A stretch of DNA of 52,086 nucleotides. Source: Candidatus Margulisiibacteriota bacterium. Lineage in GTDB: Bacteria > Margulisbacteria > Marinamargulisbacteria > UBA817. Position 1 is the first letter of the stretch, and each line of letters starts with the position of its first letter. Location: positions 1 through 52,086 of the forward strand of contig JADHOE010000005.1 of the NCBI GenBank assembly GCA_016779165.1, given 5' to 3'. Positions 2,711 to 15,939 of this stretch are shown piece by piece. The notes below the pieces were generated by a model. That model saw only the letters and a list, made by a program, of their open reading frames with translations. It was not told the DNA's origin and made no database searches. The translations under genes were made by a program, and so were the position numbers.

Positions 2711-3862
2711 ATGACCAATGAAGTTGCAATCATAGGTGGTGGTTGTGCCGGGCTTGCCTGTGCCATTCGATTAAAGGAACGCAATATTCCATTTAAATTG
2801 TTTGAGGCAAGCAGTAAGCTTGGTGGTCGCGTTAGTTCCGAGGTGACGGGGGATTTTATGATTGATAAGGGGTTTCAGGTGTTGTTGCCTCATTACAAAA
2901 CAGCCAAAAAGTTGTTGGATTATAAAGCGCTTGACTTGTGCAAATACCCAAAGGGGGCTAGCATATTAACCCCAAATGGAACGCAGTGGTTTGGTCTTCA
3001 ATTACCGCCTCATTTAAAAGCAGGCGAAAAACTTAAGCCAACGTATCGAGATTACATGCAGCTGGGGCTTGATGTCATGTGTGGGGCATTTCCGCCAAAA
3101 AAGCCCAGTGGTGCAACGGTGGATCATTTTTTGGCCAATTATTCCACCCATTTTGCCAATCAATTTTTAATTCCATTTTTTCGTGGGGTGTTTCTCGATC
3201 CCAATTGTGAAAAAAGTTCCAATCAATTTCAATATTACTTGCATGCCTTTTTAAGGGGTGGGGCGGCCATTCCCGCCAAGGGCATGGCCACTATTCCCTT
3301 GCAGTTGGCCAGCCAACTGCCAGACCATTCCATTGAATATAAGTCAACAGTGACCGCCATTCACAACAATACCGTTACGGTGAATGCCAATGTGCATTCC
3401 TTCAAACACATTGTGCTTGCTACTGATTTGTCGAATGCGCATCGGCTGTTGAATCAACCCTTGCCTAAAACCCCATGGTTGGGGGTGCATAATGTGATAT
3501 TTTCCAAAAAAGGCAACACCCAGTTGGCCCCACTAACCTTGGTTGCCCGACCGTCAATTATTTCTCATATCAATGTTCCTACCTTGGTATCTAAATCATT
3601 GGGCCCTATCGGCACGCATGTTGTGAATGTGAGCTTGTTTGATCATCACGACCCTGCAGATGTGCAGAGGGAGTTGGTTGCACTCACCAATGAGTCTGAT
3701 TGGGAATTTTTGCATGCCAATGCCATTCAAAATGCACTGCCAAAATACCAGTTAACCCCCATAATCACACCAAATGTTTCCATTTGTGGGGACTGGATGT
3801 CAACCATTCAATCGATCGAGGGGGCCTTGCATTCTGGTTACAACGTCCCCTTACCGTTTTAA
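2711..3862 (+). CDS. FAD-dependent oxidoreductase of the amine oxidase / phytoene desaturase type
   Basis: The 383-residue protein opens with a Rossmann dinucleotide-binding motif, VAIIGGGCAGLACAIRL. It continues with FEASSKLGGRVSSE, the second FAD-contacting segment of flavin amine oxidases, protoporphyrinogen oxidases and carotenoid desaturases. The C-terminus has ICGDWMSTIQSIEGALHSGY, the conserved end motif in which Gly-Asp contacts FAD and SIEGALxSG caps the fold. I see no signal peptide or membrane segment, so a cytoplasmic flavoenzyme is likely. The substrate is unknown. It has its own promoter with leaderless spacing. Its last 12 bases overlap the end of the convergent sodC. Confidence 0.85.
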   Translation: MTNEVAIIGGGCAGLACAIRLKERNIPFKLFEASSKLGGRVSSEVTGDFMIDKGFQVLLPHYKTAKKLLDYKALDLCKYPKGASILTPNGTQWFGLQLPPHLKAGEKLKPTYRDYMQLGLDVMCGAFPPKKPSGATVDHFLANYSTHFANQFLIPFFRGVFLDPNCEKSSNQFQYYLHAFLRGGAAIPAKGMATIPLQLASQLPDHSIEYKSTVTAIHNNTVTVNANVHSFKHIVLATDLSNAHRLLNQPLPKTPWLGVHNVIFSKKGNTQLAPLTLVARPSIISHINVPTLVSKSLGPIGTHVVNVSLFDHHDPADVQRELVALTNESDWEFLHANAIQNALPKYQLTPIITPNVSICGDWMSTIQSIEGALHSGYNVPLPF

Positions 3863-4417
3863 GGTTTTTGGCTTTGCAATGCCAATCACGCCCATGCCAA
3901 TGCGGGGTCCGGCATTGCCTGCGGGCTGTTCACCGGTGTCAGGGTTGGCATGAACCACCACGCTTCGGCCAATAATGGGGTTTCTAACCCCAGCAATGGT
4001 AATGGTGGTGTCGAGCATTTTAAACAAGGCGTCTCCGTTATCATTCGCGGTTATATTGCCGAACGATCCGGCATGTCGGTTGGGGTTGGGGGGCAACCCA
4101 TGGCGGTGTTTTTCGGGGTTATAGTGGCCCCCAGCACTTTTTCCGGATTCTTGATCTGACACATTGCCAAATTCATGCACGTGCACCCCATGGTCTTGAT
4201 TGGGCGTTAGCCCTGATAACACGGCATTGACCAATACCCCATTGGGGGTTTGTACAAAATAAAAGGTGCCGGATACGCTGTTCCCTTTTGTTGGTGCAAT
4301 AACCGCAATGGCTTCGTGGTATTCATTTGCATGGCGAGCCAATGTGCTGGTGTGGTCCGCGCAAAAAACCAGGGGGTGAATTGCCATTAATATTGGAAGT
4401 AAATATCGAATAATCAT
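3851..4417 (-). CDS. sodC: Cu/Zn superoxide dismutase family protein with an altered zinc site
   Basis: 188 aa with an N-terminal signal peptide (hydrophobic LLPILMAIHPLVFCA), so exported to the periplasm. Aligned to human SOD1, the copper ligands are kept: His79 and His81 (HVHEFG), bridging His98 (GGHYNP) and His156 (VVVHANPD). Zinc ligands His106 and His115 are also kept. The fourth zinc ligand, Asp83 of SOD1, is Ser118 here (RHAGSFGN). The two disulfide cysteines are Gly92 and Met175, so no conserved intramolecular disulfide can form. The active-site Arg is present as Arg172 (GNAGPRIG). It probably dismutates superoxide or binds copper; activity is uncertain given the zinc-site change. It is transcribed alone from a leaderless-type promoter. 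Confidence 0.93.
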   Translation of the reverse strand: MIIRYLLPILMAIHPLVFCADHTSTLARHANEYHEAIAVIAPTKGNSVSGTFYFVQTPNGVLVNAVLSGLTPNQDHGVHVHEFGNVSDQESGKSAGGHYNPEKHRHGLPPNPNRHAGSFGNITANDNGDALFKMLDTTITIAGVRNPIIGRSVVVHANPDTGEQPAGNAGPRIGMGVIGIAKPKTLKR

Positions 4418-4496: not shown

Positions 4497-7400
4497 ATGG
4501 GCATAAACCAATGTATCATGAATTTGTGTAATCACGTGGTTTATCGATGGTGTGTGGGAGTCGTTTTGCTGGTATTTTCGTTGGCAATGCATGCCTATAT
4601 TCCCCCAGAAATAGAGTTGATGGCGGTATTCGACATTGATGAGTATGCCGTGTCTGGCAATCAAACGGTTCATTTGGATTTGTTTTATTCCGACAACCTA
4701 GAGGTCCCATTTTACGAAGAAGTGCTTCGAAATGTGCCATTTGATAACGGGGTTGCGTCATTAATTATCGGCAAAAATGGCGAGTTGTTTAACCATTATT
4801 TTGATCGCCCAGATATTGTTGTGAGCATTAGTGTGCGTCAGCAAAACATTAAATTTCCCATGAATAGTGTGCCATATTCTATTCGAAGCAAAGAATCAAA
4901 CAAAGCACGTCGCGTGGATAACGAAGCCATTGTAAAGTTTTTAGAATCAGAACGCCGGGTGGGGGTGTTAACACAGGCGCCAGAGCTCACATTGGATGTC
5001 AATGGCCCGGTGATTTTGGGGATACATCGGCCCAGTGACGAGGAAAAAAATGGGGTGATGATGTTCAATAGCAATCAGAATCAATTTATGGGGTACAGAA
5101 ATGGTTGGCATTCCATGTCATGGATGCCAGACCCTGAAGATGCAAGTAAATGGGCACGCCTGGAGACGGCCATTCAATCGCCTTTGCCTGTGGGCATTGG
5201 GCGGGCGCCAAACTCGGTGGCCTTATCGGTGTCCAATAATGTTCGCTTTGATTCTGGCCTGCATGTTGATGAGGATATTTATTTGTATGGGGAGGCACGG
5301 TTATCCAGTGGCCATGGGTTTCACCCCAATGGTGATTTGTCAGCTGCATCGGTGATAATGCCCAGTGGAAATTCGTGGGATTCCAATGGGAATCTTATGT
5401 TTTCTGGCATTTTATATGCAGAGGCGGGGCCCAATTTGGTTGGGCTGCACCAGTTTTCAGATGGAGTGTTTAAATCGGAACATTTGAATCAAAACATCAT
5501 TCAAGAATCCCATATTCAGAACCAACAAATTCAACATTTTCATTTAAGTGATGGCAGTGTGGCCACAACAAACATGGCCCCGCAGCAGGTGTCTGCTGTG
5601 TATATTGCCGATGCAGCCATTGCTAGCCGGCACATAGACGACGGTGCTATTCAAACCCATCACATGAAAAAAAATATGATTGCGTCTGAAAATGTGCGTG
5701 GGTATGTGTTTTTGCAGAAAAAATTTGCACCAAAATCTGTGCTGTCTCGGCATGTGGTCGATGGGCAAATCACCAGTGATAAAATTAAATCCAAACACAT
5801 TATCACCGATCACTTCATTGAATCAGCGTTTGTTGATACCCAGCATATTATCGATGGCAGTGTTGTTGGTGATCATGTGCCATTGGCAGGGCTGCCCGTC
5901 GGGGCATTTCATGGGGTGCTCCCATTGCGTCTTGGCGGCACTGGCCAATCCAGCATATCGCCTTATGGGGTGCTGTTGTCTAGCCCTCAGGGGCAATACC
6001 TAAGTGAACCCAACTTTTTTTCGGTGGATGACGGGCATGTTGGCATGGGTGGTTTACCGTCATCATTAGCAACCCTTCGTATTGCATCCAATCAAAACAC
6101 ACAACTCGGCATGGTGTCTGATATTGATTCAGTGTCTGTTGTTTTTAAAACCCCCAGCACGCAATGGCAGTTTCAACTGACGGATTCAGGTAGGTTTGAA
6201 TTGCGTCACAATGATACTGCAATTATGGTGATTTCAGAATACAATCGCGTTGGGCTTGGCGTATCAAATCCGACCGAGAAACTTGCATTGAATGGCCCGA
6301 TGATTCTTGGGGAATCCGTGGCCACTGACTGTGTGCCAGGGTCCATTAAATACAGTGGCGGCCAATTTTCATTGTGCTTTAATAACCAAAACTGGTCGCA
6401 GGTGTCGCCTTCAGGCATTGCCAGAAGATCATTGCTGAAGGATCAACTGGCGAATTCGCATCGTTCATCGGTTGTTTTTGCTAAAGGTAGCCGTATCATT
6501 GGGGATTCACTGTGGGTGGATTCGGCCAATGACGCGACCATTGTGGGGCAGATGTTATCGGTTGCAGGGGGTGAGTCATCGTCAATTTCTGGGAGCAATG
6601 CCATGGCCTTTGAGGTGTCAAATGCCAATGCAATGGTTGGTGGATCGTCGGTGGCATTGGTTCAGGGGGCACGCATTCAGGCCATGGGATCTCGATTGGC
6701 AGATGTGACCATGGTTCATGCCACGGTTGATGCATCGTTGGGGCACGCATTGTCAGCCACCAATCTTCATGCCAACCATGCCCAGGTGGTTGGTGTGTCT
6801 GAATCGACGATTGATGCGAATCATTCTACAGTGGCGTTTGTTGATGGATCAGTCATTCAGTCAGACCTCGCCCATGTTCGTATGGTGCAAGCATCAACCA
6901 TTTTGGCCTCATCAAGCCAGGTGGTAGGCATTGAATCCAGCGATATCCATGCAAGGGCATCGGATGTCATTGGGGTAAATCATTCAGAGATTCATGTTGA
7001 TGATTCAACAATATCCCACGTTGGTGAGTCCCGAATTAAGGGCAAGGGCCATGTTGTGTTTGGCGGTAAGCATCATGATATTGTTGGCGACGAGCATGTG
7101 GCCGTATCTGGGGATGAGCACTCGGGGGCTGGGCACCGTGTTGTCGCCATTGGGTCGCATACGCAATCCAACCACAACGATACGGTCCTGTTAAATGCGT
7201 CTCAGCGCCCACTTCGTTCCGATCGAAATGGCCAATTAAAAATTCAAGCCGATGGTGGTATCCAATTTAAGTTTCGAGATGACTTCGTATTGTCCATGGC
7301 CGATGGCAGTGTGGGGTGGGCCAATGTGAGTGATGCCAATTTGAAAACAATTAAAGGGGGAGTGGACCTTCGTGATATTTTAAAAAAAATCAGCGATTTG

Positions 7401-7901
7401 CCCCTGCATTATTGGACATACAAAGCTCAAAAAGATGTGATGCATATTGGCCCAACGGCACAAGACTTCCATCGAATTTTTCAATTTGGGAATTCGGATA
7501 AAGTGATTCATTCCATTGACTCTGATGGGGTGCTGTTGGCATCGGTTAAAGGGTTAAATAAGGTGTTGGATGACTTAAGTAATGCCTTGTCCGAACAACA
7601 AAGCGCCCTGGGCGTGGCCAATGCATCGGCAACCACAACCGTTGCTACCATAGATAATTATCGCCAGCGCATTGCTCAACTCGAGGCCAACATACACGTT
7701 AATACGCGATTGCTTAAGCAATTTGAGTCGGACCATAACGATCAAAATAACATGATCAACTACATTACTAATGCCATTCGCATGCAATGGTGGCAACGGG
7801 TGTGCAATCGGTTGTTAGAACCCAGTTCGTTGGGGGGAATTGTTTTGGTGGGGGTCTCACTTGGTGCGGTGCTTGGTATCCGTTGGAGGCGATTTCAATG
7901 A
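4497..7901 (+). CDS. Secreted fibre-like protein with C-terminal S74 self-cleaving chaperone domain and membrane anchor (paralogue 1)
   Basis: 1134 aa. Layout: signal peptide (GVVLLVFSLAMHA; the Met at 4518 is an alternative start); an N-terminal beta domain ending PMNSVPYSIRSK, as in many tail-fibre-like bacterial surface proteins; segments of the type VNGPVILG and WHSMSW; a stretch of IxDGxI-xxHI repeats (residues about 320-470); GGTGQ at 480; a beta-roll-like region of short V-x-x-S-x-I repeats (about 640-880). The Peptidase S74 / intramolecular chaperone domain starts at Ser945 (VSDANLK, catalytic dyad Ser945-Lys950) and includes HIGPTAQDF. A coiled coil is followed by a hydrophobic segment GGIVLVGVSLGAVLGI and basic RWRRF at the very end. 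S74 domains trimerise fibres and then cut themselves off. The function of this fibre is unknown. Its stop overlaps the next start (ATGA). Confidence 0.85.
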   Translation: MGINQCIMNLCNHVVYRWCVGVVLLVFSLAMHAYIPPEIELMAVFDIDEYAVSGNQTVHLDLFYSDNLEVPFYEEVLRNVPFDNGVASLIIGKNGELFNHYFDRPDIVVSISVRQQNIKFPMNSVPYSIRSKESNKARRVDNEAIVKFLESERRVGVLTQAPELTLDVNGPVILGIHRPSDEEKNGVMMFNSNQNQFMGYRNGWHSMSWMPDPEDASKWARLETAIQSPLPVGIGRAPNSVALSVSNNVRFDSGLHVDEDIYLYGEARLSSGHGFHPNGDLSAASVIMPSGNSWDSNGNLMFSGILYAEAGPNLVGLHQFSDGVFKSEHLNQNIIQESHIQNQQIQHFHLSDGSVATTNMAPQQVSAVYIADAAIASRHIDDGAIQTHHMKKNMIASENVRGYVFLQKKFAPKSVLSRHVVDGQITSDKIKSKHIITDHFIESAFVDTQHIIDGSVVGDHVPLAGLPVGAFHGVLPLRLGGTGQSSISPYGVLLSSPQGQYLSEPNFFSVDDGHVGMGGLPSSLATLRIASNQNTQLGMVSDIDSVSVVFKTPSTQWQFQLTDSGRFELRHNDTAIMVISEYNRVGLGVSNPTEKLALNGPMILGESVATDCVPGSIKYSGGQFSLCFNNQNWSQVSPSGIARRSLLKDQLANSHRSSVVFAKGSRIIGDSLWVDSANDATIVGQMLSVAGGESSSISGSNAMAFEVSNANAMVGGSSVALVQGARIQAMGSRLADVTMVHATVDASLGHALSATNLHANHAQVVGVSESTIDANHSTVAFVDGSVIQSDLAHVRMVQASTILASSSQVVGIESSDIHARASDVIGVNHSEIHVDDSTISHVGESRIKGKGHVVFGGKHHDIVGDEHVAVSGDEHSGAGHRVVAIGSHTQSNHNDTVLLNASQRPLRSDRNGQLKIQADGGIQFKFRDDFVLSMADGSVGWANVSDANLKTIKGGVDLRDILKKISDLPLHYWTYKAQKDVMHIGPTAQDFHRIFQFGNSDKVIHSIDSDGVLLASVKGLNKVLDDLSNALSEQQSALGVANASATTTVATIDNYRQRIAQLEANIHVNTRLLKQFESDHNDQNNMINYITNAIRMQWWQRVCNRLLEPSSLGGIVLVGVSLGAVLGIRWRRFQ

Positions 7902-10900
7902 TGCTTCGTTTTCTTTTTTTATGTGCCATAAGCGCATGCCTTTATGCGTCGTCAATCAATGTGTATCTGGAGCTGGTATTATCCCGTTCAGGCACGCTCA
8001 TTGATGGGGCAACGGATATAACCGTATCCTTGGTCGGTCCAAGTGGTGATTACCGGTGGGGTGAAACCCATCGTTCGGTTCATGTGTTTGATGGTGTTGC
8101 AGCGTTTCAAATTGGTAACATTACCCCCATTAAACCGCATTACTTTTATGACCAAGGGGTTGAATTATTGGTAACCATTGCCGAAGAGAGCATTTCATTG
8201 CCCATGCGGTCCACGCCATTTAGCTTGTTTTCTCATTCGGCTGATGTGGTGAATGCCATTCATATGGAGGGTGTATTTCATACTGATTTAATTAACAAAC
8301 GCATTGGCATTGGCATTGATCATCCCACACCATCGGTATTGTTGGAGGTCAACGGTGCGCTTCGGGTATCCGATAATGTTTTTGTGGATGAGATTGGGGC
8401 CATTCGATGGCGAAATTTTCGTTTGGAAGGCCGTCATAATCATCAATGGGAGTTGTTGGATATTGGGCCTCAGGATGACTTGGAAACCAAATGGGAAAAA
8501 TCGCCAGCTGTTGATGGCTTTTATTCATTGCAACCGGTGGCCATTGTATCCGAGCATCCATCCGCCATGTTAACGGTGTCTGGAAATGTGTATGTCGATC
8601 AAGATGTTGCTGTGGGTGGGCAATTAAGTGCCCTGGGCCGATTAAGTTTGCCCAACAATTATGGGGTGTCCAACAATGGAGGCGTTACGGCACGATCCCT
8701 TTACCTTGATTCGGATAATCGATTGAACGTGACCGACGGGCTCATGGTATCTGGCCAATTGATGGGCAATGGGGCCGGTGTGTCTGGTATTGGGTCCCAG
8801 CATATTCGTTCGAATGCCGTCCAAGGCCATGAATTAATGCCGTCGGCCATTGCATCGATTAATGTTTTAGATGGTGCCATTACCAACGACAAACTAATGC
8901 CAAATAGCATTACAAAACGAACCCTGTCAGATACTTTTGAACTGTTGAATGAGCACTTTTTACTAGGGGTTATTGATGCCCAAAAAATTCAGCCGTATTC
9001 CATTGGCCAAAATGACCTTTCCCCCACATTTGAATTGTCCGCATTTCATTTTTCCGATGGTATTATTGTCAGCCAAAATATTGGGAATGGGTATCTAGAT
9101 GCCTCTGTTCTGGGGAACGCTGAGTTAGCTGTGAGTGATGTTAATGGTGCTGTTATTGATGATTCGCGCTTATTGGATGATGGCGCAATGCATGAGCATC
9201 ATATACATGATGGGACCATTTTGGCGGAGGATTTTGCCCCAGGGTCATTGGGGTTTAGCCACATTGATGCCCCCTTTGGCATGGCCATTGGTGGCACTGG
9301 TCAAACAGATTATGGAAACATTAACGGGCAATTAATGATGGTGTCTGATAACCGGGTAGAAACAGTGCCCATGGCATTAACCAGTAAAGGCCTTGGGATT
9401 CATACGGCAACCCCAATGGCCCTGCTGCATGTCATGGCTGTGTCTGAGCAACCCGCAGTGCTCATTGAAGCAGTCGATCCAACGACCTCATTGTCAAATG
9501 GCATTCACTTTAAAAATCAATCGGGCCGTTGGTTTATTGGGGTTACCCCCACTGGAAATTTTGCGTTGCAAAATGAGTTGAACCTTGAACGTGTGTTGGC
9601 CATGAACAACAGCAATGGCCATCTTGGTATTGGGCAAGAGCCAGGCATTGAGCGGCTAAGCATTCATGGTGGGGTGGTATTGGGTGATGATGCCCAAACG
9701 GCAGAGTTGCCGCCTGGTAGCGTGTATTTTTCAGCGGATGATGAGCAATTCAAATGGGTAACCGATACAGATACGTTGGTTATCCCACAACCGCTTGATG
9801 GGGCAGTGAGCCAATCGGAGTTTTTTACTGATGATATTCATAATGCATCCACAGATAGCTGGGTGTTGTTGGGGCAGGGTATTGATGCATCGGGGAGCAA
9901 CCATGTGGTCATGGGTGCATCTGAGTCCAGCATTGCTGGCCATGGCCATGTGCTAATGGGGGGGCACCAACTGGGGGTGAGTGGTGACAATCACCACGTG
10001 GTTCAATCGGTAAGCACCGCAGTTGAGGGCAAGAATGCCACCATTCAATTGGCGCATAATACCCACATTGCAGGGAGTGATCATTTGGGTGAACAGTTGC
10101 ATGGTGCACGCATCAATGGCCATGGCCATGGCCTGTTTCAGATTCAAAATAGCCATGTTGGTGGGCAATCCAATCATGTGTCATTTGCAAGCAATGCCAG
10201 GGTAAATGGCTTGAATCATGGGGTTCACCATGCGCATCTTGTCGATGTTGATGGGAACTATCATCAGGTTGGTTTTTCAGATTCAATGGTGGTTCACGGC
10301 CATCAGAATCACCTTTCCCATGCCACCAAAGGTGTGCTGAATGGCACACAAAATATGGTGGCCCAATCCAATAATATTACAGTGGTTGGTAATAAAAATC
10401 ATGTGGCCAATGCATCATCTGCCGTGGTCATGGGGGATGCCAATCAGTGGGTGCAATCGTCTGGATGGGTTGTTGGGTCCAACAATCGGCATTTGGGCAG
10501 TGGTGTGCCAACCATTGTTGGTAATGGGAATTCAATTATTGGGCACAGCAATGCGGCCATTCGTGCCAATCACGTTGTTGCAATGGGAACATCACGCCAG
10601 GGCATTGGCACCGATGAAAGCATTCACTTTTTTGCCCCTGGTGGTGTGGATATAGTGAGTGGTGATACCGCATTGGCGGTGTTGGCCCCCAATGCAGGCA
10701 GTTGGTCCCATGTGTCGGATCGTGCCGTTAAAACGAATGTTCGCGCCATCGATCCCTTAAAGGTATTGCATCAGGTGGCCCAATTGCCCATGTCTGAATG
10801 GAGCTACAAGGGCCAAAATTACGTCCGACACATTGGGCCAATGGCGCAAGACTTTTATCAAATGTTCGAATTGGGAAGCAGTGACCGTTACATTCAAACG

Positions 10901-11200
10901 GTTGATATGGACGGCATTATTTTTTCAGCGATTCAAGGGTTGGGCAAGCGCTACACGCAAGTGAATTACATTCACCAGCATGTGACCAAACAGCATCAGA
11001 ATTTAGCAACCAACAATCAAGTCATTCAACATTCGGTTGACGCTTTATTGGCATCCGCCAATGCCCTTGTACCTCACCATCAAGCATTGAATGACCAATT
11101 TGATGCATTGCATAAAAACGAGCGAGACCAATCAATGGCCATTGATCACTTGGGGCAACGATTGAATCAGCTGCAACAGCAGTTTTTGGAGCAGCCATGA
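7898..11200 (+). CDS. Secreted fibre-like protein with C-terminal S74 domain, no membrane anchor (paralogue 2, His-rich)
   Basis: The start at 7898 overlaps the previous stop as ATGA and gives 1100 aa with a signal peptide MMLRFLFLCAISACLYA. The frame runs upstream to 7787, but that part lies inside paralogue 1. Architecture matches paralogue 1: an N-terminal beta domain ending LPMRSTPFSLFS, a VNGALRVS segment, DGAI-type repeats, GGTGQ at 465, a beta-roll region, and an S74 domain with dyad Ser940-Lys945 (VSDRAVK) and HIGPMAQDF. It ends in a coiled coil (QRLNQLQQQFLEQP) with no transmembrane segment, unlike paralogues 1 and 3. The beta-roll (residues about 670-900) is unusually rich in His, Asn and Gly, in repeats such as VNGLNHGVHHAHLVDVDGN. 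It is probably translated in step with its neighbours. Confidence 0.85.
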   Translation: MMLRFLFLCAISACLYASSINVYLELVLSRSGTLIDGATDITVSLVGPSGDYRWGETHRSVHVFDGVAAFQIGNITPIKPHYFYDQGVELLVTIAEESISLPMRSTPFSLFSHSADVVNAIHMEGVFHTDLINKRIGIGIDHPTPSVLLEVNGALRVSDNVFVDEIGAIRWRNFRLEGRHNHQWELLDIGPQDDLETKWEKSPAVDGFYSLQPVAIVSEHPSAMLTVSGNVYVDQDVAVGGQLSALGRLSLPNNYGVSNNGGVTARSLYLDSDNRLNVTDGLMVSGQLMGNGAGVSGIGSQHIRSNAVQGHELMPSAIASINVLDGAITNDKLMPNSITKRTLSDTFELLNEHFLLGVIDAQKIQPYSIGQNDLSPTFELSAFHFSDGIIVSQNIGNGYLDASVLGNAELAVSDVNGAVIDDSRLLDDGAMHEHHIHDGTILAEDFAPGSLGFSHIDAPFGMAIGGTGQTDYGNINGQLMMVSDNRVETVPMALTSKGLGIHTATPMALLHVMAVSEQPAVLIEAVDPTTSLSNGIHFKNQSGRWFIGVTPTGNFALQNELNLERVLAMNNSNGHLGIGQEPGIERLSIHGGVVLGDDAQTAELPPGSVYFSADDEQFKWVTDTDTLVIPQPLDGAVSQSEFFTDDIHNASTDSWVLLGQGIDASGSNHVVMGASESSIAGHGHVLMGGHQLGVSGDNHHVVQSVSTAVEGKNATIQLAHNTHIAGSDHLGEQLHGARINGHGHGLFQIQNSHVGGQSNHVSFASNARVNGLNHGVHHAHLVDVDGNYHQVGFSDSMVVHGHQNHLSHATKGVLNGTQNMVAQSNNITVVGNKNHVANASSAVVMGDANQWVQSSGWVVGSNNRHLGSGVPTIVGNGNSIIGHSNAAIRANHVVAMGTSRQGIGTDESIHFFAPGGVDIVSGDTALAVLAPNAGSWSHVSDRAVKTNVRAIDPLKVLHQVAQLPMSEWSYKGQNYVRHIGPMAQDFYQMFELGSSDRYIQTVDMDGIIFSAIQGLGKRYTQVNYIHQHVTKQHQNLATNNQVIQHSVDALLASANALVPHHQALNDQFDALHKNERDQSMAIDHLGQRLNQLQQQFLEQP

Positions 11201-14200
11201 GGGTTTGGTTGATTGCCTTGCTTTGTGTGGTTGGTGTGGCGTTTGCGTCGGAGGAAGAAAAAATTATTCATGTCCCCAATCAGCTGACGGTTGATATGAT
11301 ACTCAGTGATCAAAACGGTTACTTAAATGGGTCGTTTTTTGTTCGAGCACGGTTGTACGATTCTATTAACAAGGCATTGCTTTGGTATCAGGATTTTGAA
11401 AACTACCAAGTTGTTGATGGGTCTGTGGTGCTAACCATGAATGAATTAGCAACAATAAACGAATATGACCTTCACCTAAAATCGTTATTGTTTGTGGTGA
11501 GTATTGACGATCAATCTGTCGAAATTCCACTGCTTACCCATTTGTACGCATACCGCAGTAAATTTTCAGAGTTTGGGTGGGACACCCGTTTTCCAAGCAT
11601 TTTTAATATCAATCGAAACGCCAATTATGTTGGCATCGGCAACCCCAATCCCAAAGCCCCATTGCATGTTGGTGGTGGTTTGAAATTAGGGTTCGAGAAT
11701 ACGGTGGTGACTGGTGCCATTGCATGGCGTGATCAAACCCTAAAAGTAAAACATCCCAATGGGTGGGTGGACCTTTTGTATGGCCCCACAACATTTAAAA
11801 AGTCACGGTGGAATGCATTTTCAAGCCATATCCAATTGGCAAGCGCCAATTACAGCATTGGCATTGGGGTAACGTTTCCTCAAGAACAGCTCCATGTTGG
11901 TTCAAACGGGCTTTTTTCCGGCAATTTGAGGGCATTGGATATTCAGGCATCATCCATGAACATCAATACTATGTCGTTGAATTCAGTCAGCGGTCTGTAT
12001 GCCACAGAACTTCGCATTGCAGACAGCAATAAACAACTGGACTGGAACCGTGATTCCTTGCGTGTGCCGCATGGCCAGGTAAATGGCAATGGTGAAGAAC
12101 TCACCCATTTGGGTGCTCAGGCCAATGAAGATGGTCATTTAGGAGGGATGTTGCCCAATAGTCTTCAATCCCATCACATTGATACCAACACCATTGGGGC
12201 TACTCATTTTCAATTGTCGAGTATTTTTAATCGCCATTTGGGTACGGGCCTTGGTATCGATAAATTTAATATCGGTATGTTTGATGGTGACCTTATTGCT
12301 GAAAATGCCATTGCATCCGACAATATCCTGCCAGAATCGTTAACCATTGATTTATTGGAAAATAACAATTTATCCGAGTTTATTCCAGATGGCATTTTTG
12401 GATCAGACAAAATTGAAGATAATAGTGTTTACAATCGTCATTTTGGCCAAGAAAGTATTGCATCCTTTAACATTATTTCGCATATATTTGGTGCAGATCA
12501 ATTGGCACCCAATACCATTGACGCTGGGCGTCATATTGTCCCCAATGCGGTTAGCGCTTCTAAAATTAAGGCCGGGGAAATTGGGGCTGGGTTATTTTCT
12601 GGCGTGCTGCCAACCAGCCAGGGAGGAACAGGAATTACTTCATTAAGCACAAAGCGCGTGATTCGTTATGATTCACTTCAGCAGCAATTTGACCCAACCA
12701 CCAATATGCACATTGTTTTTGATGATGCAGGGCAACCACAATCCTTAGGCATTGCCGACCAATCATTTTTAAATGAACTGGAATTGGGCCATTTTCAATC
12801 CCCACTGACCTTGTTTTCGAGAACAGGGTCTGCAAATGCGCGAATTGAAACAACCACCAACAATACGGTTGGCATGCGACTCAAGCACCCCTTAGCAACC
12901 ATGGACGTTAACCTTCAATCCAATGGTTATCTTCAATTGGCCCTCAATCAGCAGGCGGTATGGTTTCATGACCATGGGTTGTCATTTGATGCCATGCACC
13001 AGCAACATCAGTTGCATGTTGGAGGCGCAGTAACAATTGGGGATACATCATCGTCTCAACCGGTCATCGGAACCATGGAATACGAGTCTGATGCCAATCG
13101 ATTTCGATTTTATATGCCGGACGGGGCTACAAATGAGTGGTATATCTTAAATGGAAGCGTTAGCCGGTTTGGCATTGGGGCCCCATTAAATTTAGCAAGT
13201 GACGTCCATTACATTGACTCATTTATTGGTCAGCTTATTCATGCCACTGGCACTAGCCAGGCATCTCGATTATTGTCGGTTGATCACTCTACTGTCAGTG
13301 TGAATGCTGTGGTATTGGATCGACTGCATCATTCGCACCTTGATGCCACTGCTACACAACTTGGGTCGGTGTCAGGGTCGACCATTCATTCACAGGATGC
13401 CCTGCTCAATCGCATCGCATCCTCAACTATCAGGGTATCAAAATCTCACATTAGCAAGGTGGATGCATCCAACATTCATGCCCAGCATTTGGCAGCCAGT
13501 CAGGTTCAGTCATCGCGTATTCGTGGCAAACACGCGCATGTTCGGGCGATTCAGGACGTGGATGCCACCATTGCCCACAGTGAGCTCATGCAACTGCGAG
13601 ATTCCCACATTCAAGGCAGTCATACCACGGCCTATCAATCCCACCAGCTGTTTCTGACAGGTGATTCAACCTTTGCCCAGGCTGCCAATCGCAGTCGCAT
13701 TATTGGCAATGCCAACCATGCCACTGTTCTTGTAAACGCCCAGGTAACAGGCAATGCAAATCGGCTGACTCTTATGGACGATGCAACAGTTAATGGCAAC
13801 AATAATCAGGCATTAGTTGCGTCAGATGCCATGATTTTTGGTGACTCAAATCGGGTGCTTGGGCATCATCAACGAATAAGGGGCACTCAAAATACGGTGA
13901 TTGGCGACCATGTTGTCGTCAATGGCGATCAAAACATTGTCATTCAAGCATCCAAATCGCCCATTCGGGTGGATGGCAACCAGCAGGTGGTAATGGCTGC
14001 GCCAAATGGGGTGCAGATTCATACTGGTGATGGCATGGTGGTTGCTGCCAACCAAACATCTGGTGGATGGATGATGGTATCGGATGAAGCCCTTAAAGAA
14101 AACTTTAAACCAGTGGATCATTCACGTTTGTTTCAACAGCTTATGGGCTTGCCTGTCGCAAAGTGGGAGTATAAATTTAACCCCGGAGTTGCGCATATTG

Positions 14201-14640
14201 GGCCAATGGCTCAGGAGTTTAATGCCATATTCAATATGGGTGAAGATCCACGGTTCATTAGCGCAACCGATGCGGATGGGGTGGCATTTTCGGCCATTAA
14301 ACACCTTGTTCATGCCACCACGACCATTCAACGTGAATCAATTCCTGTGGGGGTGAATCACCAGCGTGAATGGGGCTCGACGCTTGATCAAATTGGTGAC
14401 ATTATTGTGTCATTGGAATCATCAATGGCAATGAAAAAAAATGCCTTAGATTTTATGGTTCAAAATAATTTAAAACAATACCAAACCCTTGATGGGTACT
14501 TTAAATCGTTAAAGCAGCTGCCGCCACCCCCACATCAGGGGGTGTTGCTCATGACGTCTATGGGTGTTTTAGGCGCCTTTTTTCTGGGGTTTTATTTGGG
14601 ATTTCTGTTCATAAGGCGGTATGATAATAAGAAAAAATAA
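11197..14640 (+). CDS. Secreted fibre-like protein with C-terminal S74 domain and membrane anchor (paralogue 3)
   Basis: 1147 aa starting at an ATGA overlap with paralogue 2. Signal peptide VWLIALLCVVGVAFA; N-terminal domain ending EIPLLTHLYAYRSK; a VGIGNPNPKAPLHVGG segment; DG and IG repeat spacers; QGGTGITS with the Gly-Gly at 476; a repeat-rich beta-roll region (about 690-930) with motifs such as VNGNNNQALVASDAMIFGDS. The S74 domain has dyad Ser962-Lys967 (VSDEALK) and HIGPMAQEF. After a helical stretch and PPPPH comes a hydrophobic segment (VLLMTSMGVLGAFFLGFYLG) and a basic tail (RRYDNKKK). The landmark positions match those of paralogues 1 and 2 closely, consistent with subunits of one fibre. 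gltA follows within 16 bases. Confidence 0.85.
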   Translation: MRVWLIALLCVVGVAFASEEEKIIHVPNQLTVDMILSDQNGYLNGSFFVRARLYDSINKALLWYQDFENYQVVDGSVVLTMNELATINEYDLHLKSLLFVVSIDDQSVEIPLLTHLYAYRSKFSEFGWDTRFPSIFNINRNANYVGIGNPNPKAPLHVGGGLKLGFENTVVTGAIAWRDQTLKVKHPNGWVDLLYGPTTFKKSRWNAFSSHIQLASANYSIGIGVTFPQEQLHVGSNGLFSGNLRALDIQASSMNINTMSLNSVSGLYATELRIADSNKQLDWNRDSLRVPHGQVNGNGEELTHLGAQANEDGHLGGMLPNSLQSHHIDTNTIGATHFQLSSIFNRHLGTGLGIDKFNIGMFDGDLIAENAIASDNILPESLTIDLLENNNLSEFIPDGIFGSDKIEDNSVYNRHFGQESIASFNIISHIFGADQLAPNTIDAGRHIVPNAVSASKIKAGEIGAGLFSGVLPTSQGGTGITSLSTKRVIRYDSLQQQFDPTTNMHIVFDDAGQPQSLGIADQSFLNELELGHFQSPLTLFSRTGSANARIETTTNNTVGMRLKHPLATMDVNLQSNGYLQLALNQQAVWFHDHGLSFDAMHQQHQLHVGGAVTIGDTSSSQPVIGTMEYESDANRFRFYMPDGATNEWYILNGSVSRFGIGAPLNLASDVHYIDSFIGQLIHATGTSQASRLLSVDHSTVSVNAVVLDRLHHSHLDATATQLGSVSGSTIHSQDALLNRIASSTIRVSKSHISKVDASNIHAQHLAASQVQSSRIRGKHAHVRAIQDVDATIAHSELMQLRDSHIQGSHTTAYQSHQLFLTGDSTFAQAANRSRIIGNANHATVLVNAQVTGNANRLTLMDDATVNGNNNQALVASDAMIFGDSNRVLGHHQRIRGTQNTVIGDHVVVNGDQNIVIQASKSPIRVDGNQQVVMAAPNGVQIHTGDGMVVAANQTSGGWMMVSDEALKENFKPVDHSRLFQQLMGLPVAKWEYKFNPGVAHIGPMAQEFNAIFNMGEDPRFISATDADGVAFSAIKHLVHATTTIQRESIPVGVNHQREWGSTLDQIGDIIVSLESSMAMKKNALDFMVQNNLKQYQTLDGYFKSLKQLPPPPHQGVLLMTSMGVLGAFFLGFYLGFLFIRRYDNKKK

Positions 14641-14655
14641 GATATGGGAGACAAC

Positions 14656-15939
14656 ATGGAATTTGATTACTTAAGGCAAGATATTATAGATGCGAACACC
14701 ATTCCTGGGAATTTATACACCGAGTTGGATGTGAAGCGAGGCCTTCGGCATGCCGATGGCAGTGGCGTGTTGGCTGGGTTGAGTCGAATTTCATCGGTGG
14801 TGGGTGTGTCCACAGCCAATGGTACCCGTGAAGCTGCCGATGGGGTGCTTAAATACCGTGGCCGATTGATTCATGACTTGGTTCAGGATACCAATGGAAT
14901 CAGTCGCTTTGAATATGTGGTGTTTTTATTGTTAACTGGTCGTGCGCCTTCACCCAAAGAAATGGGAGACTTGCAAACGTTTTTGTCTCACCATCGAATG
15001 GTGAGTCGTGAATTTACCGATCACCTTATTCGTTCCATCCCATCCAAAAATATCATGAATAAACTTCAAACAGTGGTGTCGGCACTTTACACCCTAGACC
15101 CTCACCCTGAAAGCCTTGACCCTTACGATAACTTTTTAAAAAGCTTGGTTATTATTGCAAAACTGCCAGTGATTGTGGCGCAATCTTACTTGTTGGCCTA
15201 TGAAACCAATCCTGAGTTGGTTACCCCCGAGCCCAACATGAATACCGCGCAATCCTTGCTAACATTGTTGCGGCAAGGTCAGCACCCCGACCCATTTGAG
15301 GTTGATATTTTGGACTTGGCGTTGTTATTGCATGCGGAGCATGGCGGCGGCAATAATTCATCGTTTACAACCGCCGTTGTTTCGTCAACTGCATCCGATA
15401 TTTATGCCACCATTACAGCGGCCATTGGCTCATTAAAGGGGCCCTTGCATGGCGCTGCAAACAAAAAGGTTATGGACATGATGGCTGATATTAAAAGCCA
15501 TGTGCCCGACTGGACCAATGCCAACGAGGTGCGCGGATATCTAGAGAAAATTGTTCAAAAAAAGGGGTATGATCGTTCTGGTAAACTGTATGGCTTGGGC
15601 CATGCGGTGTATACTGCATCGGATCCTCGGGCCATTATCTTAAAGCAGAAGGCCGAGGAGCTGGCAACGCGTGTTGATCGAATGGATGAATTTACATTGT
15701 ATTGCTTGGTTGAGTCTGAAGGCCCTGAGGTGTTCCAGTCGGTTAAGGGGTCCGATAAGCGCATTGCTGCAAATGTGGATTTCTTTTCTGGATTTGTATA
15801 CGATTGCCTTGGTATTCCTGCTGACATTTATACCCCCATGTTTGCCATGGCCCGTACTGCGGGTTGGTGCTCCCATCGATTGGAAGAAATTTTATCTGGT
15901 AAGCGTGTTATCCGCCCTGCATATAAATTTGTTGGGTAA
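14656..15939 (+). CDS. gltA: Citrate synthase
   Basis: Condenses acetyl-CoA and oxaloacetate to citrate at the entry to the TCA cycle. The catalytic signatures are HAEHGGGNNSSFTTAVVSS, GSLKGPLHGAANKKVMDM and GLGHAVYTASDPRA, which contain the active-site His residues, and FFSGFVYDCLGIP near the C-terminus. I chose ATG 14656 (427 aa) because GGGAG stands 6 nt upstream. An in-frame ATG at 14644 would add four residues but has no ribosome binding site. The spacing of 15 bases after the third fibre gene means readthrough from that operon is possible. The downstream convergent region holds hairpins but no other gene. Confidence 0.97.
   Translation: MEFDYLRQDIIDANTIPGNLYTELDVKRGLRHADGSGVLAGLSRISSVVGVSTANGTREAADGVLKYRGRLIHDLVQDTNGISRFEYVVFLLLTGRAPSPKEMGDLQTFLSHHRMVSREFTDHLIRSIPSKNIMNKLQTVVSALYTLDPHPESLDPYDNFLKSLVIIAKLPVIVAQSYLLAYETNPELVTPEPNMNTAQSLLTLLRQGQHPDPFEVDILDLALLLHAEHGGGNNSSFTTAVVSSTASDIYATITAAIGSLKGPLHGAANKKVMDMMADIKSHVPDWTNANEVRGYLEKIVQKKGYDRSGKLYGLGHAVYTASDPRAIILKQKAEELATRVDRMDEFTLYCLVESEGPEVFQSVKGSDKRIAANVDFFSGFVYDCLGIPADIYTPMFAMARTAGWCSHRLEEILSGKRVIRPAYKFVG

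Follow-up and report, generated by a model that had tools for sequence, protein, structure and literature searches.

Phage proteins with a Peptidase S74 domain (endosialidase K1F, the T5 L-shaped fibre) and the eukaryotic MYRF protein carry a trimerizing chaperone with an autocleavage dyad, and they assemble as homotrimers from single genes. In MYRF, a membrane span lies behind the S74 domain. Bdellovibrio bacteriovorus produces the so-called mosaic adhesive trimeric (MAT) fibres, a family with an S74 subfamily (Bd3182) and NS74 members (Bd2133, Bd2439 and Bd1334), in which a signal peptide and a β-rich N-domain are combined with S74 or other tips (PMC10769870). MAT crystal structures are trimeric, S74 self-cleavage has been shown, and the solved tips, from a genome with 21 different MATs, are symmetric trimers of one chain (PMC10769870). 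A fibre made of three different chains is described for the virophage DSLV2: three consecutive genes encode a tripartite heterotrimeric tail fibre, supported by 1:1:1 co-purification and AlphaFold3 (PMC12724248). In the literature that we searched, we found no three-gene heterotrimeric fibre that carries S74 or occurs in bacteria. Here we describe a bacterial locus with three old, coupled, co-conserved S74 fibre subunits of equal length that differ in their membrane anchoring.

The locus lies in a window of 52,086 nucleotides (the whole stretch of DNA that was analysed) from a Candidatus Margulisiibacteriota bacterium of the Marinamargulisbacteria, a marine group (PMC6349859). Because its genome (G000; 1.15 Mb, 71% complete) holds two Omp85 genes, the bacterium probably has an outer membrane and is diderm. 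On the forward strand, gene A (4497..7901, 1134 aa), gene B (7898..11200, 1100 aa) and gene C (11197..14640, 1147 aa) were assigned by reading frame, Pfam, hydropathy and orthologues to secreted S74 fibre proteins, with a C-terminal membrane span in A and C and without one in B. ATGA overlaps, also on the forward strand, would couple stop to start at 7898..7901 (A/B) and 11197..11200 (B/C). The A/B overlap is the same in a genome of the same genus (G001) and spans 11 bases in another member of the family (G002); the B/C overlap is 4 bases long in both and 8 bases in a genome from another family of the order (G004). The reading frames and overlaps thus bear out the three tandem paralogues that the sequence-only reading had reported. 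The start of B was taken as the ATG at 7898; a longer mechanical frame begins at 7787 and shares 115 bases with gene A. By equal length we mean within 4.3%, with matched segments. To the right, a citrate synthase gene (14644..15939, forward strand; Pfam Citrate_synt 4.5e-102) lies outside the fibre and keeps this place in G001, G002 and G004. Directly upstream of the triplet, on the opposite strand, is a Cu/Zn superoxide dismutase gene (window 3851-4417).

All three proteins have the same order of parts: a hydrophobic N-terminal segment that fits a signal peptide, a β-rich N-domain (strands E22-E102 in a model of low-to-moderate confidence), VGIG..P...L units, KI..GAI-type repeats and a GGTG motif, then second VGIG-like units, a segment of 15-residue period, the S74 domain and a long helix. 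Peptidase_S74 (PF13884) is found on the forward strand at 7329..7481 in A (30.4 bits, E 4.9e-7), 10715..10867 in B (37.8 bits, 2.3e-9) and 14080..14232 in C (35.7 bits, 1e-8), each time above the Pfam cut-off of 22. The earlier claim of an S74 domain in every chain therefore holds, and the GGTG motifs (residues 480, 465 and 476) and S74 serines (945, 940 and 962) lie where they had been placed. The predicted Ser-Lys dyad motif, SDxxxK, reads SDANLK in A (Ser945...Lys950), SDRAVK in B (Ser940...Lys945) and SDEALK in C (Ser962...Lys967); its S, D and K are invariant in 11 of 11 C-termini from four genomes. The segment before S74, absent from the earlier account, is a β-roll with a clear 15-residue period of hydrophobic residues. 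Anchors and periodicity place it on the forward strand at residues 615-940 of A (6339..7316), 607-935 of B (9716..10702; model pLDDT ~90 over residues 720-840) and 625-957 of C (13069..14067). The full-length model of B is poor outside the roll (mean pLDDT 54), and both protein models render the S74 region poorly. When the B model was used for a fold search, the hits were tailspike-like β-helices with TM-scores of only ~0.1, and they were set aside.

By profile comparison, the closest known family of A, B and C is that of the Bdellovibrio MAT fibres. In fact, a profile of the GGTG-to-GxxxY region matched Bd2133 (8OND, E 1.7e-8), Bd2439 (8OL4, 3.7e-4) and Bd3182 (8OJN, 4e-4) in the PDB. Like A, B and C, MAT fibres have a signal peptide, a β-rich N-domain of ~130 aa (a likeness by description only), a length of ~1000 aa and an S74 end with SDxxxK, and their capping-loop motif, V-G-G/N-x-x-x-P-x-x-x-L, fits the VGIG..P...L repeats. 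Unlike MAT fibres, A, B and C come from three coupled genes, have predicted membrane anchors in A and C, and place a long β-roll ahead of S74; the words heterotrimer, operon, tandem and transmembrane are absent from the main text on the MATs (PMC10769870). The DSLV2 fibre resembles our locus in its three consecutive genes of similar length, the 1:1:1 composition being shown there and only proposed here. It differs in being gp37-like, short (58 kDa for the whole complex) and of a virophage, and the available part of its report mentions no S74 domain, β-roll or export signal (PMC12724248). The sequence-only reading had taken its S74 precedents from K1F, T5 and MYRF; it passed over both the MAT fibres (PMC10769870) and the proven heterotrimer of the virophage (PMC12724248).

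In the β-roll, the full-length profile matched a grass ice-binding protein (3ULT, 2e-9) and the UspA1 head (3PR7, 1.2e-5), and Pfam LbR_Ice_bind stayed below its cut-off. A, B and C are thus like the YadA/UspA1 heads and the grass ice-binding β-roll (LbR) in their roll, and differ from them by the S74 domain that follows it. YadA-type trimeric autotransporters end in an anchor barrel; Pfam detected none at the C-termini of A, B and C, which have S74, a helix and, in A and C, one span. A phage origin of the triplet was considered and rejected: viral contigs have only the S74 domain in common with A, B and C, a tblastn search with B against 50,697 phage records gave no match, no full-length viral relative came to light, and a motif scan of 77 viral loci found no tandem S74 triplet.

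The C-termini set the three chains apart in a way that the earlier account had not recorded. A membrane span followed by a basic tail is predicted in A (residues 1110-1128; 7824..7880, forward strand) and C (residues 1121-1139; 14557..14613, forward strand; a helix in the model), with a Kyte-Doolittle mean of 2.0 in both, and none is predicted in B. In this respect A and C are like MYRF, which also has its span after S74. B ends in a modelled helix of 98 residues (1001-1098; 10898..11191, forward strand), presumably a coiled-coil strand, which stops near the start of the A and C spans. Counted from the DADG aspartate in G000, G001 and G002, the B tail measures 98, 98 and 71 residues, the A span starts at +102, +101 and +89, and the C span at +96, +91 and +82; in G002 all three values are lower than in the other two genomes. 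A three-stranded coil of which two strands are anchored would be expected to show this pattern. The G002 A span is weak (Kyte-Doolittle 1.04), and no span is predicted in either B or C of G004. The sequence of A had suggested a PEP-CTERM-like sorting signal (EPSS-span-RRR), but G001 and G002 do not conserve the motif, and this reading was dropped.

Searching 56 genomes of the phylum with PF13884, we obtained three consecutive S74 hits in each of G000, G001 and G002; a single contig of G004 gave two, and no S74 triplet was found in G003 (65% complete). A, B and C form three orthologous classes, and the order A-B-C-citrate synthase is identical in G000, G001 and G002. Within the family, orthologues are 31-42% identical (to A, 40% in G001; to B, 42% in G001 and 34% in G002; to C, 39% and 32%) and paralogues about 20-25%. 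Since their mutual identity in the window is only 22-25% over ~1000 aa, A, B and C are, to judge from this divergence, old paralogues. The same figure excludes recent gene conversion as the source of their equal length. The frames overlap at every A/B and B/C junction seen. In the IG1-W part, identity is 0.61 among orthologues versus 0.22 among paralogues, so each class has a conserved surface of its own near the predicted base of the fibre.

Contig ends interrupt the A genes of two relatives. In G002, A is divided between the end of C9 (its first 855 residues) and the start of C49 (its last 256), and we infer that the two belong together. In G004, the contig starts inside B, and B and C, probably orthologous to the B and C classes, adjoin citrate synthase. 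The end of another G004 contig, C58, holds an N-terminal fragment (the first ~120 residues) whose best match is G001 A (E 2e-4), preceded by a gene that shares 37.5% identity with the nadB-like gene ahead of A in G001. This fragment would be the start of G004's A, separated from B and C by the contig break. The sequence-only reading had proposed to check homologous loci for a constant set of three genes, and the result, lengths included, is favourable: three consecutive genes of comparable length are conserved together in G000, G001 and G002 (A being split over two contigs in the last), and G004 has B and C, with A represented by the putative fragment. Citrate synthase comparison pointed to L068 and L069 as the closest further Marinamargulisbacteria-like genomes, and in both that gene has no fibre genes beside it.

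How closely are the chains matched? The near-identical spacing of landmarks in the sequence-only reading holds to within a few residues per segment but is not exact, the GGTG-to-serine distance being 465 in A, 475 in B and 486 in C. Over all copies, anchor distances are 29-30 residues for PyS-IG1, 245-254 for IG2-GGTG, 133-149 for GGTG-GxxxY and 62-63 for Ser-DADG. From GxxxY to the tryptophan before S74, a stretch that is mostly β-roll, family members measure 326/324 (A), 329/331/326 (B) and 333/327/323 (C) residues, versus 526 (B) and 516 (C) in G004, ~190 residues above the family; by segmentation, this corresponds to roughly 16-20 roll repeats versus 28-29. The roll ranks among the segments with the lowest sequence conservation (orthologue identity 0.30), yet its length is kept and seems to move in step between chains. 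There is no fine co-variation of segment lengths among members of the family. In a tree built without the roll, G004 B groups with the other Bs (support 82/86), which would make the length change parallel in B and C. The alternative, in which G004 B and C form an in-paralogue clade, is not rejected (p-AU 0.15), and if the two were a separate local duplication their equal length would be trivial. We read the length comparison as supportive, not decisive.

Profile searches uncovered a second tandem fibre triplet, with genes of 1995 and 1932 aa and a cut third in G000 (C13, L147, 5129-19449), of 1908, 1874 and 1835 aa in G001 (C11, L148/L156), and a cut first followed by 1843 and 1832 aa in G002 (C37, L151). 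These genes adjoin or overlap by a few bases; identity is 31-44% at orthologous positions 1-3 and 22-28% between positions. They are without S74 and have His-rich C-termini, and position 1 of G001 matches the phage tail fibre family phrog_8469. G021 (C15, L171/L172), from a different family of the class, has three tandem genes of this kind: one of 3407 aa, one of 3220 aa that lacks ~179 residues at its start (~3399 in all) and a third that runs off the contig. Triplets of equal length thus recur, with a different kind of tip and at a different absolute size. A further fibre paralogue (L147 2133-5078, 981 aa; L148 2225-4975, 916 aa) lies directly upstream of this triplet in G000 and G001, with a weak YadA_head match in G000.

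Paired fibre genes also occur, so that fibre genes in the class do not always come in threes. A tandem pair of large secreted fibre-like proteins is present in G000 (C27, L149, 1454-11797; 1655 and 1787 aa), G001 (C16, L150) and G002 (C61, L153), adjoining an adenylosuccinate lyase-like gene in the first two; its first members keep their length among orthologues (1655/1634/1627 aa). Other families of the class have pairs of giant fibre genes (3457/3253, 3453/3253 and 3458/3225 aa). Complete pairs differ in length by ~6-8%, versus at most 4.3% in the S74 triplets. By eye, giant fibre-like pairs of 3200-3500 aa (L164/L165, L167/L168, L169/L170, L174-L177) flank or adjoin a tyrosine recombinase-like gene and, in some cases, also a zinc-metalloprotease-like gene. 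At two further loci (L191 2052-3838, L199 5222-7068), the fibre genes follow genes for a small protein, whose C-terminal domain is a weak type IX-like match under the cut-off, and for a possible outer-membrane protein. A search for SprA, which would indicate type IX secretion as an exit route, had no match in 23 relatives, and its control matched nowhere either.

To explain these results, we lean with modest confidence towards A, B and C forming a 1:1:1 heterotrimer, that is, one surface adhesive fibre whose chains would run parallel and in register. Three non-interchangeable classes keep a fixed order in three genomes at 31-42% identity, with B and C together in a fourth; their frames overlap at all junctions seen; roll length is held despite its low sequence identity (323-333 residues in complete family copies versus 526/516 in G004); the B tail and the A and C span starts shorten together in G002; the IG1-W part is conserved by class; S74-free triplets of equal length exist in G000, G001 and G002, with one of ~3400 aa in G021; and the DSLV2 fibre provides a three-gene 1:1:1 precedent (PMC12724248). 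Against the heterotrimer we count the one-chain trimers of the solved MAT tips (PMC10769870), the possible local duplication of G004 B and C, the G004 A represented only by an N-terminal piece of ~120 residues on a separate contig, the G004 B and C without a span and the weak span of G002 A, the lack of fine co-variation of segment lengths within the family, and the paired fibre genes of other genomes in the class. The chief rival is a set of three independent MAT-like homotrimers that would be co-produced and stand side by side with tips of different specificity, their length kept by equal height or by packing in a bundle. Bdellovibrio, with its symmetric tips and its 21 different MATs (PMC10769870), offers a model for such an arrangement; giant pairs of similar length and the steady length of first pair members point the same way, and equal height predicts much of what a heterotrimer predicts. 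We nevertheless regard separate homotrimers as rather unlikely: equal height leaves unexplained the matching of every structural segment beyond the total, the fixed A-B-C order with overlapping frames, and a B that lacks a span and has a helix ending near the A and C span starts, and complete pairs are less well matched in length than the S74 triplets.

Could equal length come merely from tandem duplication and conserved domain order, with no joint assembly? The three chains are indeed paralogues of one architecture, and the G004 B and C may be local duplicates. At 22-25% identity, however, repeat numbers would be expected to drift; within the family they have not, the shift of ~190 residues affects both B and C of G004, and the second triplet behaves alike at ~1900 and ~3400 aa, which makes this explanation improbable. 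We give still less credence, indeed very little, to a mixed arrangement with an obligate A/C pair at the membrane and B as a soluble partner, for example in A2B or B2C trimers or in a B fibre on which A and C form a cap. The restriction of spans to A and C in the family and the two-gene fibre loci of the same genomes would fit such a scheme, but all three chains have a complete S74 domain, a β-roll of equal length and a helix of nearly equal length, and none bears a marker of a cap.

If A, B and C do form a heterotrimer, gene coupling would supply them in roughly equal amounts, and the chains would reach the periplasm via Sec. At the inner membrane, the two anchored helices of A and C would form a three-stranded coil with the B tail and so hold it there. 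The S74 domains would nucleate the trimer; after folding, a predicted cut before the serine would detach the fibre and let it travel to the surface, comparable to the release of MYRF from the membrane by cleavage. The β-roll region may be the exposed, variable and probably ligand-binding tip, and fibre length would evolve only if all chains change together.

More tentatively, and rather as a possibility than as an expectation, we envision obligate A:B:C heterotrimers as the surface fibres of this order and, in the case of the second fibre type, of a wider part of the class, with repeat numbers in lock-step, a two-span inner-membrane anchor and release by S74 self-cleavage; those of the order would then be the first bacterial heterotrimeric S74 fibres. 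The trimeric bacterial and phage S74 fibres that we compared have one kind of chain and hence a threefold-symmetric tip. A heterotrimer would instead present an asymmetric tip with three ligand faces. Its composition would have to be enforced, and the system could show whether the S74 domain selects its partners. Repeat numbers that change together in separate genes would, in addition, be a genome signature by which other heterotrimeric fibres might be recognized.
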